The notes under the pieces: generated by a model | What the model saw: only the letters and a program-made list of their open reading frames with translations | Told to the model about the DNA's origin: nothing | Database searches by the model: none | Part shown: positions 2,725 to 8,330 of the stretch, one piece after another | Layout of the letters: each line of letters opens with the position of its first letter | Position numbering within the stretch: the stretch's first letter is position 1 | Position numbers and translations under genes: made by a program | From: Methanocaldococcaceae archaeon | Lineage (GTDB): Archaea; AGJL01; Methanococci; Methanococcales; Methanocaldococcaceae | NCBI GenBank assembly: GCA_027023665.1 | Contig: JALVUY010000132.1 | Location: 1-10,303 of the forward strand | Direction of reading: 5' to 3' | DNA: 10,303 nucleotides

Positions 2725-2759
2725 TGCTAACTGGTCCCATAAAGGGTTCCCAGTTAGCA
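2725..2759 (-). promoter_or_regulatory. Archaeal SECIS element of the HesB-like selenoprotein
   Basis: Read on the minus strand, this is TGCTAACTGG, GAA, CCC, TTTAT, GGG, A, CCAGTTAGCA. A perfect ten-base-pair lower stem is followed by an asymmetric internal loop with GAA on the 5' side and a single A on the 3' side. A three-pair C/G helix and a five-base apical loop complete it. This is exactly the architecture described for SECIS elements of methanogenic archaea, which direct UGA to be read as selenocysteine. The stem's first six bases are the final Cys codon and the TAA stop of the selenoprotein gene, so the element overlaps the coding end. On the plus strand the same hairpin lies four bases after the stop of the acyl-CoA synthetase gene and might also help end that transcript. 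Confidence 0.9.
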
Positions 2760-3041
2760 CTCTCCGCTACCTTTTATTTTAATATACTTTCCAAATATTG
2801 ATCTTCTTAAAGTAAGAGTAACTTCATCTAACCATTGGTCAGCGATAGGGTCTATATAGATTTTAAATTCATTATCATAAATTAATTTATCTTTTTCGTT
2901 TGGTTGTCCAATGGATATCCCAAATTTAGGTCCTCCTCATCCAAAACCATCAAAGTGTATAATTATAGTATCCTTATTTACTTTTTTTAATTTATCTAAG
3001 ATAAACTGTTTAGCTTCATCTGATATATTTACCTTCTTCAT
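2754..3041 (-). CDS. HesB/IscA-like selenoprotein with in-frame UGA at codon 35
   Basis: From ATG 3041-3039 the reverse strand reads MKKVNISDEAKQFILDKLKK and continues to DGFG, then TGA at 2939-2937, then GGPKFGISIGQPNEKDK. It ends at GSGEC with TAA 2756-2754, giving 95 residues if TGA is read as selenocysteine. Frame and family similarity continue unbroken across the TGA. The Sec sits where Cys is expected in the G-[CU]-GGP-x-FG motif of HesB-like proteins. HesB-like selenoproteins are an established class in Methanococcales. The family is related to A-type iron-sulfur carriers, but the function of this selenium form is not settled. A GGTGAT ribosome binding site lies about six bases upstream, and a SECIS hairpin overlaps the stop. 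The gene is convergent with the acyl-CoA synthetase gene and divergent from psmA. Open frames on the opposite strand here are shadows. Confidence 0.93.
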
Positions 3042-4280: not shown

Positions 4281-5681
4281 ATGAAAGGATATGCAAAGTT
4301 AATAATAGGTATTATATGCATTGCATTGGCGTTTGGTTTGGCAGTTGATGCTTACAAAACCTATTCTACAGAAGCAACTGCTATAAAGTATACTAATGAG
4401 GCGGTTCCAATAGTCAGAGATGCCATAGCAAATGATAATATGACAGAATATAAAATCGCTGAGCAATTATTAAAAAAGGCTATAGAAGCTGATCCAAACT
4501 ATCCATGGGCTTGGTATAATTTAGCTAATGTATATATCAATCAAGATCACTTCCACCATTATGATAAATTCCCATACCACACATACAAGCAAGATGGTTT
4601 AGAACAAGAGGATAAATATTATCATGAAGGTATCTATGCTATTGAGAAATTTATGAAATTAATGCCTGAAGCAAAAGCATTAGGATATGTAAGAATTGGA
4701 GATGCTAACTACTTCTACTATGACTCATATCCTGACAGAGAGCATAAAGTATTACCATACTACTTTAAAGCAATGCAAGATATTCCAGTACTTGAAAAAT
4801 ATGGTGGAAAAGGGGCTGTGGCAACATTATATGCAAATATTGCAAGAACATACTTGGCAATGGGAGAATTCCCAAAGGCACTGTATTACTATAATTTATC
4901 AGTAAATACTGCACCAGAAGGTCCAGCATATGAGCACTATGTTTGGTCATACATAATAAATTCAGAATTTGGTAATGCAAACTATTCAACTGCATATTAC
5001 TACTGTCACAAGTTTATTGACGACTATGGACCAAAATATGGATGGCAAATGGATTTAGGATATATGCCTACAGCAGTTGCCGCTTATGAACTTGGTAAAT
5101 ACGATGAAGTCCTTAAAATATGTAATAAAATACTAAAAGACTTCCCAGACTCTGATTACACTGGAGAAGCTCACAGATATATCGCTATGGTAGATATGAA
5201 AAGAGGAGACAAAGAAGATGCTATAAAAAACTTATTAGCAAATGTTGAATTCTCTACTGGTATGACTGAAGATGGTGGAGATCACTACCCAGGAGATTTA
5301 CCAGTAGGACATTATGAAAGAGGATTAGCATACTACTACCTTGGTGAATACACAGGAAATAAAAGTTACTACAAAAAAGCATTAAAAGATTTCTTATATC
5401 TTTCAAAATATTGGAACATCTCTGACAGATCAATTGCACATGAAAACTATTACTTCTTAGGTACTGAAATGGCTGCATTTACATATGCTAAGTTAGGAGA
5501 TAAAGATAATTCAATAAAATACGCTGAAAAAGCAGTTAATGAATTAAAAACTGATAAAGTACAACTTGTAGGTTGGGCTAAATACTTCACTCCAGAGGCT
5601 GAACATATCCTTCAACTTGCAAAAGAAGGTAAATTAAATGAAACTCCATTACCTGCATTCCTATACCAAATAGAACACTAA
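4281..5681 (+). CDS. Membrane-anchored, secreted-side TPR-repeat protein, 466 aa
   Basis: Residues about 6-24 (KLIIGIICIALAFGLAV) are a single hydrophobic N-terminal segment without a clear cleavage site. The rest should lie outside the membrane. The body is helical TPR-like repeats. The clearest are near 58-86 (AEQLLKKAIEADPNYPWAWYN), 179-210 (LYANIARTYLAMGEFPKALYYY), 260-290, 295-320 and 395-424. It is rich in tyrosine. Six N-glycosylation sequons (N53, N205, N234, N360, N379, N453) fit a cell-surface protein. A histidine cluster (H90, H92, H93, H100) and a second Gly/His loop near 332-344 could bind metal, though this is only a possibility. Frequent TAC and GAC codons suggest high expression. 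The start is supported by AGGTGAT five bases upstream. It has its own promoter and lies 175 bases before the MCAP peptide genes. TPR proteins act as docking scaffolds; its partner is unknown, but the neighbouring peptides are the obvious candidates. Confidence 0.85.
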   Translation: MKGYAKLIIGIICIALAFGLAVDAYKTYSTEATAIKYTNEAVPIVRDAIANDNMTEYKIAEQLLKKAIEADPNYPWAWYNLANVYINQDHFHHYDKFPYHTYKQDGLEQEDKYYHEGIYAIEKFMKLMPEAKALGYVRIGDANYFYYDSYPDREHKVLPYYFKAMQDIPVLEKYGGKGAVATLYANIARTYLAMGEFPKALYYYNLSVNTAPEGPAYEHYVWSYIINSEFGNANYSTAYYYCHKFIDDYGPKYGWQMDLGYMPTAVAAYELGKYDEVLKICNKILKDFPDSDYTGEAHRYIAMVDMKRGDKEDAIKNLLANVEFSTGMTEDGGDHYPGDLPVGHYERGLAYYYLGEYTGNKSYYKKALKDFLYLSKYWNISDRSIAHENYYFLGTEMAAFTYAKLGDKDNSIKYAEKAVNELKTDKVQLVGWAKYFTPEAEHILQLAKEGKLNETPLPAFLYQIEH

Positions 5682-5856
5682 ACTAATTCTCTCTTTATTA
5701 TTTTATTTTTTATTAAGTAATATTATTACTTTATAATATACTAATCATAAATTTTATGATTTTTATATAATTTTTTCATAAAAAAATTAATACAGAAAAC
5801 TTTATATATTTGCAAGTAATATTTAATAATTGTAAAATTTTTGGAGGTGATTGTAT
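5682..5856. promoter_or_regulatory. Intergenic region: TPR terminator, two dyads and the MCAP peptide promoter
   Basis: A T-rich run at 5688-5714 looks like a terminator for the TPR gene. Two near-perfect dyads follow: AAGTAATA-T-TATTACTT at 5715-5731 and AATCATAA-ATT-TTATGATT at 5743-5761. They may be operators or transcript-end hairpins. The promoter is CAGAAAAC followed by TTTATATA (5793-5808), a close match to BRE plus TATA. It predicts transcription from about 5828-5831 and a leader of about 27 bases. The ribosome binding site GGAGGTGAT (5843-5851) is near the ideal complement of the 16S rRNA end. Confidence 0.6.
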
Positions 5857-6021
5857 ATGTGTGCACCAATAGCAATAACTACTGGAACTGGAGTTCCTAC
5901 TCTCGGATTAGTCCTACCACAAATAATGGGAATGATCGTCTTAGGACTCGCAGGAGTTTGGGCAATAGTTTCAGCTAAAGCTTCAGAAAGAGCAAATGTT
6001 AAAACTATCTCTTCAAACTAA
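5857..6021 (+). CDS. Small hydrophobic MCAP peptide 1, 54 aa, putative modified-peptide precursor
   Basis: The peptide begins MCAPIAITTGTGVPTLGLVL, has a hydrophobic stretch through about residue 46 (PQIMGMIVLGLAGVWAIVSA), and ends with a polar tail, KASERANVKTISSN. Its single cysteine is residue 2. The hydrophobic part (about 17-40) is long enough to span a membrane and is glycine-rich (GMIVLGLAG). A strong TATA promoter and a perfect GGAGGTGAT ribosome binding site five bases before the ATG support a real, highly expressed gene. So does the second peptide downstream with the same opening residues. I do not recognise the family. The radical SAM enzyme encoded just downstream suggests a post-translationally modified peptide. 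A bacteriocin-like or structural membrane peptide is also possible. The short polar tail and lack of a classical leader-core layout are unlike many known RiPP precursors. Confidence 0.82.
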   Translation: MCAPIAITTGTGVPTLGLVLPQIMGMIVLGLAGVWAIVSAKASERANVKTISSN

Positions 6022-6075
6022 ATTAATTATGTTGCTTTCTCTTACTCTTAATTATTTTTAAGGAGGTGATAAGTT

Positions 6076-6228
6076 ATGTGTGCACCAGTATCAGTAACTA
6101 CAGTTTCTGCATCAACAATAGTAACAGCATTCTCAATTGCTCAAGTTGTAGGAATTGCTGCTTTAATAGGAGCTATGGCATTAGCGTTAAAAGATTCTTT
6201 AAAAATACCATTCTTGAGTAGATCTTAA
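6076..6228 (+). CDS. Small hydrophobic MCAP peptide 2, 50 aa, paralogue of peptide 1
   Basis: The peptide begins MCAPVSVTTVSASTIVTAFS. It continues through a hydrophobic, alanine/glycine-rich helix (about residues 15-38, including VVGIAALIGAMALAL) and ends KDSLKIPFLSRS. It shares with peptide 1 the opening MCAP, then a V/I, a small residue, a V/I, TT, and a single cysteine at position 2. The rest diverges while keeping the same plan: a membrane-length segment and a short basic tail. Its ribosome binding site AAGGAGGTGAT (6060-6070) stands five bases from the ATG, the same geometry as peptide 1. The two genes are separated by 54 bases and are probably co-transcribed. Conservation of only the first residues points to those residues as a recognition or modification site. 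Confidence 0.82.
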   Translation: MCAPVSVTTVSASTIVTAFSIAQVVGIAALIGAMALALKDSLKIPFLSRS

Positions 6229-6317
6229 ATTTATATTTCTTTTTATTTTTCTTACTATAAATTTCTTCTTTATTTTAATTAAATTTTTAAAATTAAAATT
6301 AATTAAAATGTGAAAAT
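6229..6317 (+). terminator. T-rich tracts and AT dyad between the peptide genes and the radical SAM gene
   Basis: Runs such as TTTCTTTTTATTTTTCTT (6235-6252) and TTTCTTCTTTATTTT (6262-6276) resemble archaeal oligo-T termination sites. An 11-base inverted repeat, ATTTTAATTAA (6272-6282) and TTAATTAAAAT (6299-6309), ends one base before the weak GTGA ribosome binding site of the next gene. Partial termination or a leader hairpin here would keep enzyme levels well below precursor levels. This is an inference from the sequence only. Confidence 0.4.
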
Positions 6318-7154
6318 ATGCTCTCATTCTTGATAAAACCTAAAATATTACAGGTGGAAACGACAAACGACTGTAATAGCAACTGTAAAATTTGTATGAG
6401 ACGTCATTTAAATAGACTTGTAGGTTATATGTCATTTGAAGATTTCAAAAAATTGCCACTTAAAGATTTTAATGAAGTGGCTTTACATGGTTGGGGTGAA
6501 TGTCTTCTTCATCCAGACTTATTTAAAATGGTCTCCTATGTAAAATCATTAAACATTAAAGCTAGTCTTTGTACTAATGGAACATTACTCGATAAAAGAT
6601 TAGAAGAATTGTTAAATAGTGGATTAGATGAAATAGCATTTGGTATATTCTCATTAGATGGAAAAGAAAAAGTTTTGGAAAATATAAAAAAACTTATTGA
6701 AGAAAAAAATGAAAGGAATATTCCATTAACTACTTATATTGATGTTACTATGTTCAAGGATAATTTAGATCATATTCCAGAAATTATAGATGTAGGAATT
6801 GAATTAGGTGTTGATGGGATTGTGTTACATAGATTGTTTGATATTTATGGAGTAGATCCTGATGTAAAGTATGGATTATCTTCAAAAGAAGAAAAAGAAT
6901 TTTTAACTAATTTATTATCGAAATATAAAAATAAAATAAAGGTATATCCACCTCTACCACATACTACACCTTGTAGAATATTATTAAACTGTATATTTGT
7001 TAGATGGGATTGTATGCAATCTCCCTGTGTATATTTAACAGAAGACTCCTTAGGTGATGCAAGAACTTCATATAGTGAATTAAGAAAAAGACATATTCTA
7101 TATATAAAAAAGATGGTGAAAAAAAATGACATCTGTAAATACTGTATCTGGTAA
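6318..7154 (+). CDS. Radical SAM enzyme with SPASM/twitch-like C-terminal cysteine region
   Basis: The 278-residue protein opens with KILQVETTNDCN and the radical SAM cluster motif C19-x3-C23-x2-C26 (CNSNCKIC), which binds the [4Fe-4S] cluster that cleaves S-adenosylmethionine. A variant of the SAM-binding GxGE motif follows at GWGECLLHPDLF (59-69), then LCTNGTLL (84-91). The C-terminal part has six more cysteines: 219, 225, 232, 237, 273 and 276. The pattern of C219, SPC237, then LGDARTSYSEL and a final CKYC resembles the auxiliary-cluster domain of peptide-modifying SPASM/twitch enzymes. C225 and C232 are extra, with C232 standing where glycine is usual (RWDC rather than RWDG). The start has only a weak GTGA site at 6310-6313. 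The gene lies 89 bases after the MCAP peptides and overlaps the membrane protein gene. Peptide modification is inferred; the reaction cannot be named. Confidence 0.9.
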   Translation: MLSFLIKPKILQVETTNDCNSNCKICMRRHLNRLVGYMSFEDFKKLPLKDFNEVALHGWGECLLHPDLFKMVSYVKSLNIKASLCTNGTLLDKRLEELLNSGLDEIAFGIFSLDGKEKVLENIKKLIEEKNERNIPLTTYIDVTMFKDNLDHIPEIIDVGIELGVDGIVLHRLFDIYGVDPDVKYGLSSKEEKEFLTNLLSKYKNKIKVYPPLPHTTPCRILLNCIFVRWDCMQSPCVYLTEDSLGDARTSYSELRKRHILYIKKMVKKNDICKYCIW

Positions 7155-7725
7155 CATAGATGAGAATACTCCAGTAATTACAAATAGTATAGCTAAACTT
7201 GGAGTTTCATTTGTATTTGCAAGTATTGGGTACTTTATAAGCCTTGCAGCAGGAGGAGAAGCAACATTTTCCTCTTGGTTACATGCTCCATTTTTAGGGC
7301 CTGCAATATTTGGAGGAATTTACTATATATTTTGGATAGTACTTGCTAAGGAGTTATGTGGAAGATACTATGGAATTGTTGTTTCATTATTATTAGCTTC
7401 ATTTTATCTCTTAGAGGGTCCATGGTTTAGTATAGTAGTTCCTACATGGTATAGTATAATAGGAATTATATCTACCTTAATTATGGGATATTTAACAGAG
7501 AGATTTAATGGTGCTGTAGGACTTGCAGTATTTATGATTATTAATTGGATTTGCTACTATACTATAGCAGTATATCCTCACTGGTCATCATATTATACAT
7601 TATCAGGAGTTATTATTGCATTTATACTATCAATAATATCAGGTTTTGTTGGAGATTATGTAGCTAGATATGTGGCTAAATATATAAAATCATATTATTT
7701 CTCAAAGCAAAATATCTCTGCTTAA
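7126..7725 (+). CDS. Six-segment integral membrane protein, 199 aa, possible peptide exporter or S-component-like
   Basis: After a polar N-terminus of about 20 residues, six hydrophobic segments can be placed near 22-43, 57-76, 80-97, 103-122, 129-150 and 157-178. A basic, tyrosine-rich tail follows (YVARYVAKYIKSYYFSK). Its size and segment number resemble substrate-binding S-components of energy-coupling-factor transporters, but I see no decisive motif, and no ATPase or T-component gene is nearby. The start at 7126 is supported by GGTGA at 7115-7119, seven bases upstream. It lies inside the radical SAM gene, giving a 29-base overlap and probable translational coupling. That coupling suggests the product works with the radical SAM enzyme, for example in moving, inserting or protecting against the MCAP peptides. 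Family and function are otherwise unknown. The end lies 11 bases from the convergent FmdE-like gene. Confidence 0.85.
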   Translation: MTSVNTVSGNIDENTPVITNSIAKLGVSFVFASIGYFISLAAGGEATFSSWLHAPFLGPAIFGGIYYIFWIVLAKELCGRYYGIVVSLLLASFYLLEGPWFSIVVPTWYSIIGIISTLIMGYLTERFNGAVGLAVFMIINWICYYTIAVYPHWSSYYTLSGVIIAFILSIISGFVGDYVARYVAKYIKSYYFSKQNISA

Positions 7726-7736
7726 AATAATATTTT

Positions 7737-8330
7737 TTATTTATCAATTAATTTTTCAAAACATTCCATACAAACTATTTTTCCATTAATTATTCTTCCT
7801 TTGATTTCCATAAAATATTCTCCACACTCTTCACATTTAAGTGATGGATAAATTTTAGCTTTTTTAGGTTCAGGAATTTCTACTTCATTTATAATTAAAA
7901 GATCATCATCTGATAGACTTAAAATTTTCTCTATACATTTATTTTTCAATGCTTCAGCATATTTTTTCTTTTCTTCAGGATCTTCAATGTCTTTTAACGA
8001 AGCTTTTGTTTTATTTATTTCTTCAAAAATAAAGTCTTTAAAAGTTATCCTTATACCCTTTTTACTTTTATTTTCTCTTGAGTAAAAGATATATACATGC
8101 TTACCATAATCTTTAAATATTAAGTTCCCTTTACCAAACGTACAACCTAATAAATACTGAATTGCATCTACACTACATGAGTTATTATATACTATTGCTA
8201 CTAATTCCTCATCTTCAGATCTTTTATAATATTTTTTAACATATTTTGCTACTCTATAACCTAAGGCCAAACCAACACAAAGATGCCCATGAAATTCTAC
8301 AGTTCTCCTTAAATCCTCTTCAAGTTCCAT
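7737..8330 (-). CDS. FmdE-family protein with C-terminal zinc ribbon, orphan copy
   Basis: The 197-residue protein starts with the FmdE hallmark FHGHLCVGLALGYRVA (13-28). It continues with NNSCSVDAIQYLLGCTFGKGN (50-69), whose conserved His/Cys residues (H14, H16, C18, C52, C63) form the family's metal-binding site. The C-terminus has a four-cysteine zinc ribbon: C166-x2-C169 and C187-x2-C190. FmdE was named from molybdenum formylmethanofuran dehydrogenase operons. Many members, like this one, are encoded away from any Fmd/Fwd subunits, so a role in that enzyme should not be assumed. Molybdenum, tungsten or other metal-cofactor handling is the usual suggestion. AGGTG about seven bases before the ATG supports the start. 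The gene is divergent from the potassium channel gene, with 132 AT-rich bases between them, and convergent with the membrane protein gene. Confidence 0.9.
   Translation of the reverse strand: MELEEDLRRTVEFHGHLCVGLALGYRVAKYVKKYYKRSEDEELVAIVYNNSCSVDAIQYLLGCTFGKGNLIFKDYGKHVYIFYSRENKSKKGIRITFKDFIFEEINKTKASLKDIEDPEEKKKYAEALKNKCIEKILSLSDDDLLIINEVEIPEPKKAKIYPSLKCEECGEYFMEIKGRIINGKIVCMECFEKLIDK

Follow-up and report, generated by a model that had tools for sequence, protein, structure and literature searches.

What is made from two small, look-alike genes that precede a radical S-adenosylmethionine (SAM) enzyme gene in a Methanocaldococcaceae genome, and where do their products stay? The genes lie on a 10,303-nucleotide stretch (the window), one contig of a draft archaeal genome (1.30 Mb, 266 contigs, 82% complete) that belongs to the genus group of Methanocaldococcus, as do the genomes G007 and G013 of our set. 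An earlier, sequence-only reading had taken them for part of a ribosomally synthesized and post-translationally modified peptide (RiPP) system. Our best reading is a patchily distributed archaeal cassette that would make modified, membrane-resident peptides beside a protein resembling the S-components of energy-coupling factor (ECF) transporters, and not a classical secreted RiPP; both the modification and the function are what we infer from the evidence below. The cassette spans 4281–7725, all on the plus strand, between a proteasome-alpha-like gene (named by eye) on one side and an FmdE-domain gene (Pfam) on the other. The five genes previously proposed were all recovered, including the overlap between the last two, which measures 29 nt:

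4281 to 5681, plus strand: TPR protein, 466 residues, with an N-terminal hydrophobic anchor followed by TPR repeats (Pfam TPR_2, E 2e-17)
5797 to 5809, plus strand: putative TATA-like promoter element before peptide 1, AAAACTTTATATA, proposed from conservation judged by eye
5857 to 6021, plus strand: peptide 1 (type 1), 54 residues, MCAPIAITT..., one hydrophobic span; ATG at 5857, ribosome site at 5843-5850
6076 to 6228, plus strand: peptide 2 (type 2), 50 residues, MCAPVSVTT..., one hydrophobic span; open reading frame with a ribosome site at 6062-6069
6318 to 7154, plus strand: radical-SAM enzyme, 278 residues, with a twitch-type C-terminus (Cys219, Cys237, Cys273-x2-Cys276-x-Trp)
7126 to 7725, plus strand: six-helix membrane protein, 199 residues, with an ECF S-component-like model; its start overlaps the radical-SAM gene

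Enzyme, membrane protein and peptides are conserved together as a single unit. Across 36 genomes of the order Methanococcales, the enzyme (profile search, E up to 1e-45), the membrane protein, the TPR protein and peptide 2 occurred in exactly the same six, and the other 30 had none of them. Among 398 genomes of a second phylum, in which at most six enzyme candidates per genome were scored, the enzyme profile matched six and the membrane-protein profile matched the same six; because the membrane profile was built from rows that include those six proteins, the news lies in the other 392 genomes, none of which has the membrane protein alone. A class-level search gave 5 of 81 genomes and added one locus, and another class gave 2 of 40 and added none. 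All 13 loci that were read contained the enzyme (frameshifted in G023), the membrane protein and a type-2 peptide, the last directly upstream of the radical-SAM gene every time (gap 11-129 nt), and a type-1 peptide was present in 11, one of these running off the contig end. The membrane gene overlapped the enzyme gene in 12 of the 13, by exactly 29 nt in 10. In the window, the bases at 7126-7154 encode both the enzyme end (..ICKYCIW, CxxCxW) and the membrane protein start (MTSVNTVSG), so that conservation of the latter is partly forced by the conserved C-terminal codons of the enzyme. Locus tags of M. indicus fit the same order (peptide 02400, membrane protein 02415), and the cassette is also found in near-complete genomes (99%, 2-3 contigs). 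Nor, in the genomes tested, did the peptides commonly occur without a radical-SAM gene, which would have refuted the sequence-only reading: clear matches to peptide 2 (E 9.3e-7 or better), on whose searches the genome-wide co-occurrence rests, were confined to the six enzyme-carrying genomes of the 36 (the enzyme frameshifted in one), and three weak extra matches (E 0.096-0.24) contain stop codons. An enzyme match in G019 (E 6.6e-16 in a single-sequence search; locus L040) was not counted, its neighbourhood being unrelated and devoid of any cassette partner. Three members make up the fixed core, namely the type-2 Met-Cys peptide, the twitch enzyme and the S-component-like membrane protein with its six helices; a type-1 peptide and a membrane-anchored TPR protein usually join them.

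Several lines of evidence indicate that the peptides, judged from their sequences, are real genes, which bears out the earlier claim of twin small peptides with a common MCAP N-terminus. The ribosome site GGAGGTGA precedes both window peptides; it was found upstream of 10 of the 12 Methanococcales peptides, with GAGGTGA upstream of the other two, and no such site was evident upstream of the second-phylum peptides. Frames of 40-90 residues starting Met-Cys-[Ala/Thr] numbered 24 in the 146,418 bases of the 13 cassette loci, and 23 of these are the peptides, which had initially been found by similarity and not by this pattern. The control DNA (11 loci, 131,918 bases) contained two such frames, at the same position inside the same longer gene of two related genomes. 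The nonsynonymous rate (dN) was below the synonymous rate (dS) in all 11 peptide pairs, covering both types (e.g., 0.119 vs 1.690, the values being compared as they stand); two rows, for the enzyme and the membrane gene of G258/G264, have the undefined value -1 and were left out. The protein database already holds such peptides as hypothetical proteins of M. vulcanius, M. okinawensis, M. indicus, Methanocaldococcus sp. 28A and Methanothermococcus sp. The Met-Cys start is our assignment, since several frames offer possible starts a few codons upstream, peptide 1 among them with a TTG at 5851.

The two types differ in helix and tail and have the N-terminus in common, which reads Met-Cys-[Ala/Thr]-Pro/x-[Val/Ile]-x-x-Thr. 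Type 2 was assigned by position and alignment, as were both types in G311, because scores there were too low to decide; of the five second-phylum loci with a type-1 peptide, four show it diverged from type 2. Among 21 distinct complete peptides, Cys2 is present in all, Pro4 in 19 and Thr8 in 17, and a second Cys occurs in only one. The stretch before the helix carries no charge in 17 of the 21 and a single positive charge in the other 4, and the tail is net positive in 17. Searching solved structures by sequence with the peptides returned no relative.

The candidate modifying enzyme begins with its radical-SAM domain (Pfam match, residues 13-158 of 278), and its cysteines C19, C23, C26, C219, C237, C273 and C276 are invariant. 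A SPASM/twitch-like auxiliary region had been claimed, and it narrows to a twitch with four C-terminal Cys. The enzyme combines CxxxCxxC, Cys-x9-15-Gly-x4-Cys and a CxxC close to the C-terminus but lacks the three final Cys of SPASM; the vulcanius-type P0004 keeps the Gly of Gly-x4-Cys, and the window enzyme has Cys in its place. The seven-Cys SPASM motif is absent, the protein ending two residues past the second Cys of CxxC, and PF13186 is annotated only for relatives at 49% identity or less. These details weigh on the proposal that Cys2, set in Cys-x-Pro/Ala, is oxidised to formylglycine as by an anaerobic sulfatase maturase. We consider that highly improbable, as the required Arg is missing from its place, the twitch has one cluster site where SPASM has two, and no sulfatase was found among the scanned proteins of the window.

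That the peptides are the enzyme's substrates is probable. An encoded candidate precursor lies beside the putative modifying enzyme in 13 of 13 loci, and we infer the action of the one on the other. The main competing thought is that the peptides are unmodified small subunits of an S-component-like complex and that the enzyme produces or changes something bound there, be it a cofactor, a lipid or a small ligand. Besides SuiB and SkfB, the enzyme resembles some that do not act on peptides, among them BlsE; indeed, its model fits BlsE, DesII, MoaA and viperin-like enzymes nearly as closely as it fits peptide enzymes, and the best-matching NCBIfam profile, that of the tungsten cofactor oxidoreductase radical-SAM maturase (TIGR04317), scores far under its curated cutoff (110.7 vs 380 bits). 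An FmdE-domain gene adjoining the cassette in 4 of 13 loci points the same way. This alternative nevertheless seems quite unlikely to us: an invariant Cys2 motif across two phyla and two peptide types fits an enzyme target or ligand site better than a structural feature, and the type-2 peptide stands directly before the enzyme gene at every locus. A check for anti-phage defence turned up no more than a weak likeness (48 bits) between the radical-SAM core and pVip (viperin). As a separate observation, the enzyme gene of G023 (Methanothermococcus okinawensis-type; L035:8021-8886) is frameshifted while its peptides, membrane protein and TPR protein are open, offering a possible natural enzyme-minus comparison.

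The FmdE neighbours themselves (window 7737-8330, minus strand; L038:9939-10607; L059:356-1714; L060:6765-7715) belong to the window genome, G007, G258 and G264, the last two with a divergent, secreted-looking form. FmdE genes occur in 23 of the 36 order genomes (six FmdE contexts away from cassettes were inspected) and several cassette contigs end too early, which leaves the linkage weak; FmdE was therefore rejected as a fifth component, and its adjacency may be chance.

Whether the system is a RiPP in the strict sense is a harder question, and here the sequence-only reading held in part. The conserved peptide, enzyme and membrane-protein unit stands, but strict RiPP status is unproven because no leader/core boundary, RiPP recognition element (RRE) family, protease or ATP-binding cassette (ABC) exporter was found. 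The last three were absent from the window cassette proteins in Pfam and NCBIfam, and none was recognised among the neighbours at other loci, judged by eye; no boundary was evident in the peptides. On the enzyme, no RRE or PqqD family appeared in the Pfam table or in the 25 of 43 NCBIfam matches listed, and the genome was not searched for a separate RRE gene. Under a classical two-peptide RiPP, a toxin or signal, the Met-Cys N-terminus would be the leader, helix and tail would be a core set free by cleavage after a modification such as epimerisation or crosslinking, and immunity or export would fall to the membrane protein. Co-encoded peptides sharing an N-terminus and differing in the remainder agree with it, as do the strong ribosome sites in Methanococcales and an enzyme structurally like SkfB, CteB, ChlB and the epimerase EpeE. 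The patchy distribution (6/36 and 6/398) and the broken G023 enzyme gene, expected of a dispensable trait, fit released and membrane-resident peptides alike. Against release stand the missing protease, exporter and RRE family, an invariant Cys that would be unusual in a leader, and the build of the peptides, one hydrophobic span plus a tail that is mostly basic, which resembles that of a resident membrane protein. The variable part also lacks Cys in 20 of 21 peptides, which excludes Cys-donor thioethers within the core for those 20. We regard a released two-peptide RiPP as unlikely, if a serious competitor.

Comparison with known systems sharpens the difference. SkfB, the twitch radical-SAM sactisynthase of the sporulation killing factor, has an N-terminal RRE domain, which the cassette enzyme lacks. 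Its substrate SkfA contains more than one Cys, whereas 20 of the 21 cassette peptides have a single Cys, at position 2. In epipeptides (EpeX/EpeE), a 32-residue leader is cleaved on export, whereas neither protease nor exporter was seen with the cassette, and the conserved part of the cassette peptides is the N-terminal nine residues.

The six-helix model of the membrane protein is closest to ECF S-components, so that it looks folded like a receptor for vitamin uptake. In S-components, an AxxxA motif in helix 1 serves docking to EcfT. In helix 1 of the cassette protein, Ala32 is invariant, with Ala four residues earlier in 3 of 13 members and a small residue (A/S/C/T) in 9 of 13 (alignment by eye, in which the register against known S-components is not established). 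It differs from S-components and the S-component-like BtuM in that a search by sequence found no relative among solved structures, no ECF motor genes lie in the cassette, strict AxxxA occurs at the aligned helix 1 place in only 3 of 13 members, and a peptide and enzyme are its constant partners. No ECF T/A module was recognised in the window, beyond which no search for one was made.

The TPR protein, as a cassette partner, proved frequent (10 of 13 loci) but not universal. In G311, which lacks it, the contig ends just past the membrane gene and the type-1 peptide; G258 and G264 have no TPR gene on the contig and instead carry a convergent FmdE-domain protein that looks secreted by eye. The members read end in ..EH, and the protein probably faces outside, as judged by eye. 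Apart from the cassettes, G023 carries a second TPR protein copy (L039:5388-6761, 46% identical) without the rest of the cassette, and ABC-transporter-like genes with a binding protein (named by eye) lie about 1.4 kb downstream of it. A similar gene follows the TPR gene in three of four second-phylum TPR loci (L057:6905-7573, L056:13-690, L081:3844-4500); it is DUF447 (by Pfam for L057, by eye for L056 and L081), and in the fourth locus (G036) the contig ends.

We propose that the enzyme would act in the cytosol on the common N-terminus, Met-Cys-[Ala/Thr]-Pro-[Val/Ile]-x-x-Thr, where the invariant Cys2 would most likely be the target or partner of its chemistry. Given the mostly uncharged N-terminus (17/21) and the net-positive tail (17/21), most peptides should insert N-terminus out, leaving the tail on the inner side, and the modified N-terminus would thus be displayed at the outer surface. 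There they may have as neighbours the surface TPR domain and the S-component-like protein, the loops of which would shape a pocket open to the outside, and the ensemble would act as a ligand-capturing or sensing complex. We place cytosolic modification of the N-terminus and N-out insertion, taken jointly, at a probability of about 0.5. Residence of the peptides in the membrane is, on its own, slightly favoured. The likeliest role, surface ligand binding for uptake or sensing, is a tentative suggestion that we ourselves hold in some doubt.

A more specific picture comes from the 5TMR sensor kinases, in which the S-component fold serves as a receptor with an extra N-out/C-in helix, H0, as described in the excerpted text of PMC11109136. 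The H0 orientation given there equals the one predicted for the cassette peptides. The difference is that the cassette has no kinase or other signalling domain and that its extra helices would be separate gene products. The peptides could then be lasting parts of a membrane machine: two tiny helices, each with its N-terminus out, whose processed Cys2 ends bear a modification or a metal/cofactor ligand and lie at the outer face of an S-component-fold receptor, as if they were detached, modified "H0" helices; we think this speculative and rather unlikely.

Regarding origin, the window enzyme is 94% identical to that of Methanocaldococcus sp. 10A, 82% to the Methanothermococcus copy, 71% to that of M. 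indicus and 67-68% to those of the three other genomes of its genus in the set that have the gene, and the membrane protein (74% vs 46-47%) and TPR protein (76% vs 57%) parallel this pattern. In the enzyme tree, the Methanothermococcus copy is nested among Methanocaldococcus copies. Together these relationships suggest horizontal transfer within Methanococcales; it is only suggested because forcing the Methanocaldococcus copies together was not rejected by the approximately unbiased test (p 0.06; a relative of unknown origin, P0006, left out). A phage, virus or plasmid origin was not supported by the enzyme, membrane protein and TPR searches. The enzyme had no match to plasmids and phages at E 1e-15 and one partial match among viral contigs (35% identical), on a phage-like contig that gave only a 9-bit membrane-protein match with the other four cassette proteins. 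The membrane protein had no match among viral contigs, nor had the TPR protein among viral contigs or plasmids. For the enzyme, PHROGs returned six families, either radical-SAM or unnamed; the peptides and the membrane protein had none.

A 12-base leader, AAGTAATATTTA, had been noted before both the TPR gene and the peptides. It is real in the window (4256 and 5814; 2 found vs 0.04 expected), but five other Methanococcales cassette loci hold no exact copy, and no one-mismatch copy before cassette genes, and it was rejected as a regulatory link between the TPR protein and the peptides. By contrast, a sequence like the TATA-like AAAACTTTATATA precedes peptide 1 at 5 of the 6 Methanococcales loci, counting the window (by eye). 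The window gave no Rfam match at the gathering threshold. Elsewhere in it, at 2754-3041 on the minus strand, an unannotated HesB-like frame (family by eye) reads MKKVNISDEAK...HFDGFG[TGA]GGPKFGISIG...KGSGEC with one in-frame TGA and ends in a strong hairpin (about 2725-2759, minus strand; -20.5 kcal/mol) that has no Rfam match. HesB-like selenoproteins exist in Methanococcales, and the frame looks like a putative selenocysteine gene with an archaeal selenocysteine insertion sequence (SECIS).

The cassette appears to be an undescribed modified-peptide system. Among the matches listed from the open-licence literature, neither these peptides nor the gene set is described, and Metvu_0463 to Metvu_0467 go unmentioned. 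A 2025 survey of archaeal RiPPs (PMC12144867) speaks, in its excerpted text, of product scarcity, characterises lanthipeptides and treats radical-SAM RiPPs in archaea in general terms only. Few archaeal RiPP products have been identified so far, and this cassette is compact and constant where present; the prediction that it yields, of one enzyme acting on one motif, is one for mass spectrometry to settle. Should the peptides prove to be retained in the membrane, the radical-SAM chemistry of peptides would reach beyond released products to subunits that remain in the membrane. The detached H0 helices, if real, would constitute a new kind of modified membrane complex common to methanogens and Thermoproteota.

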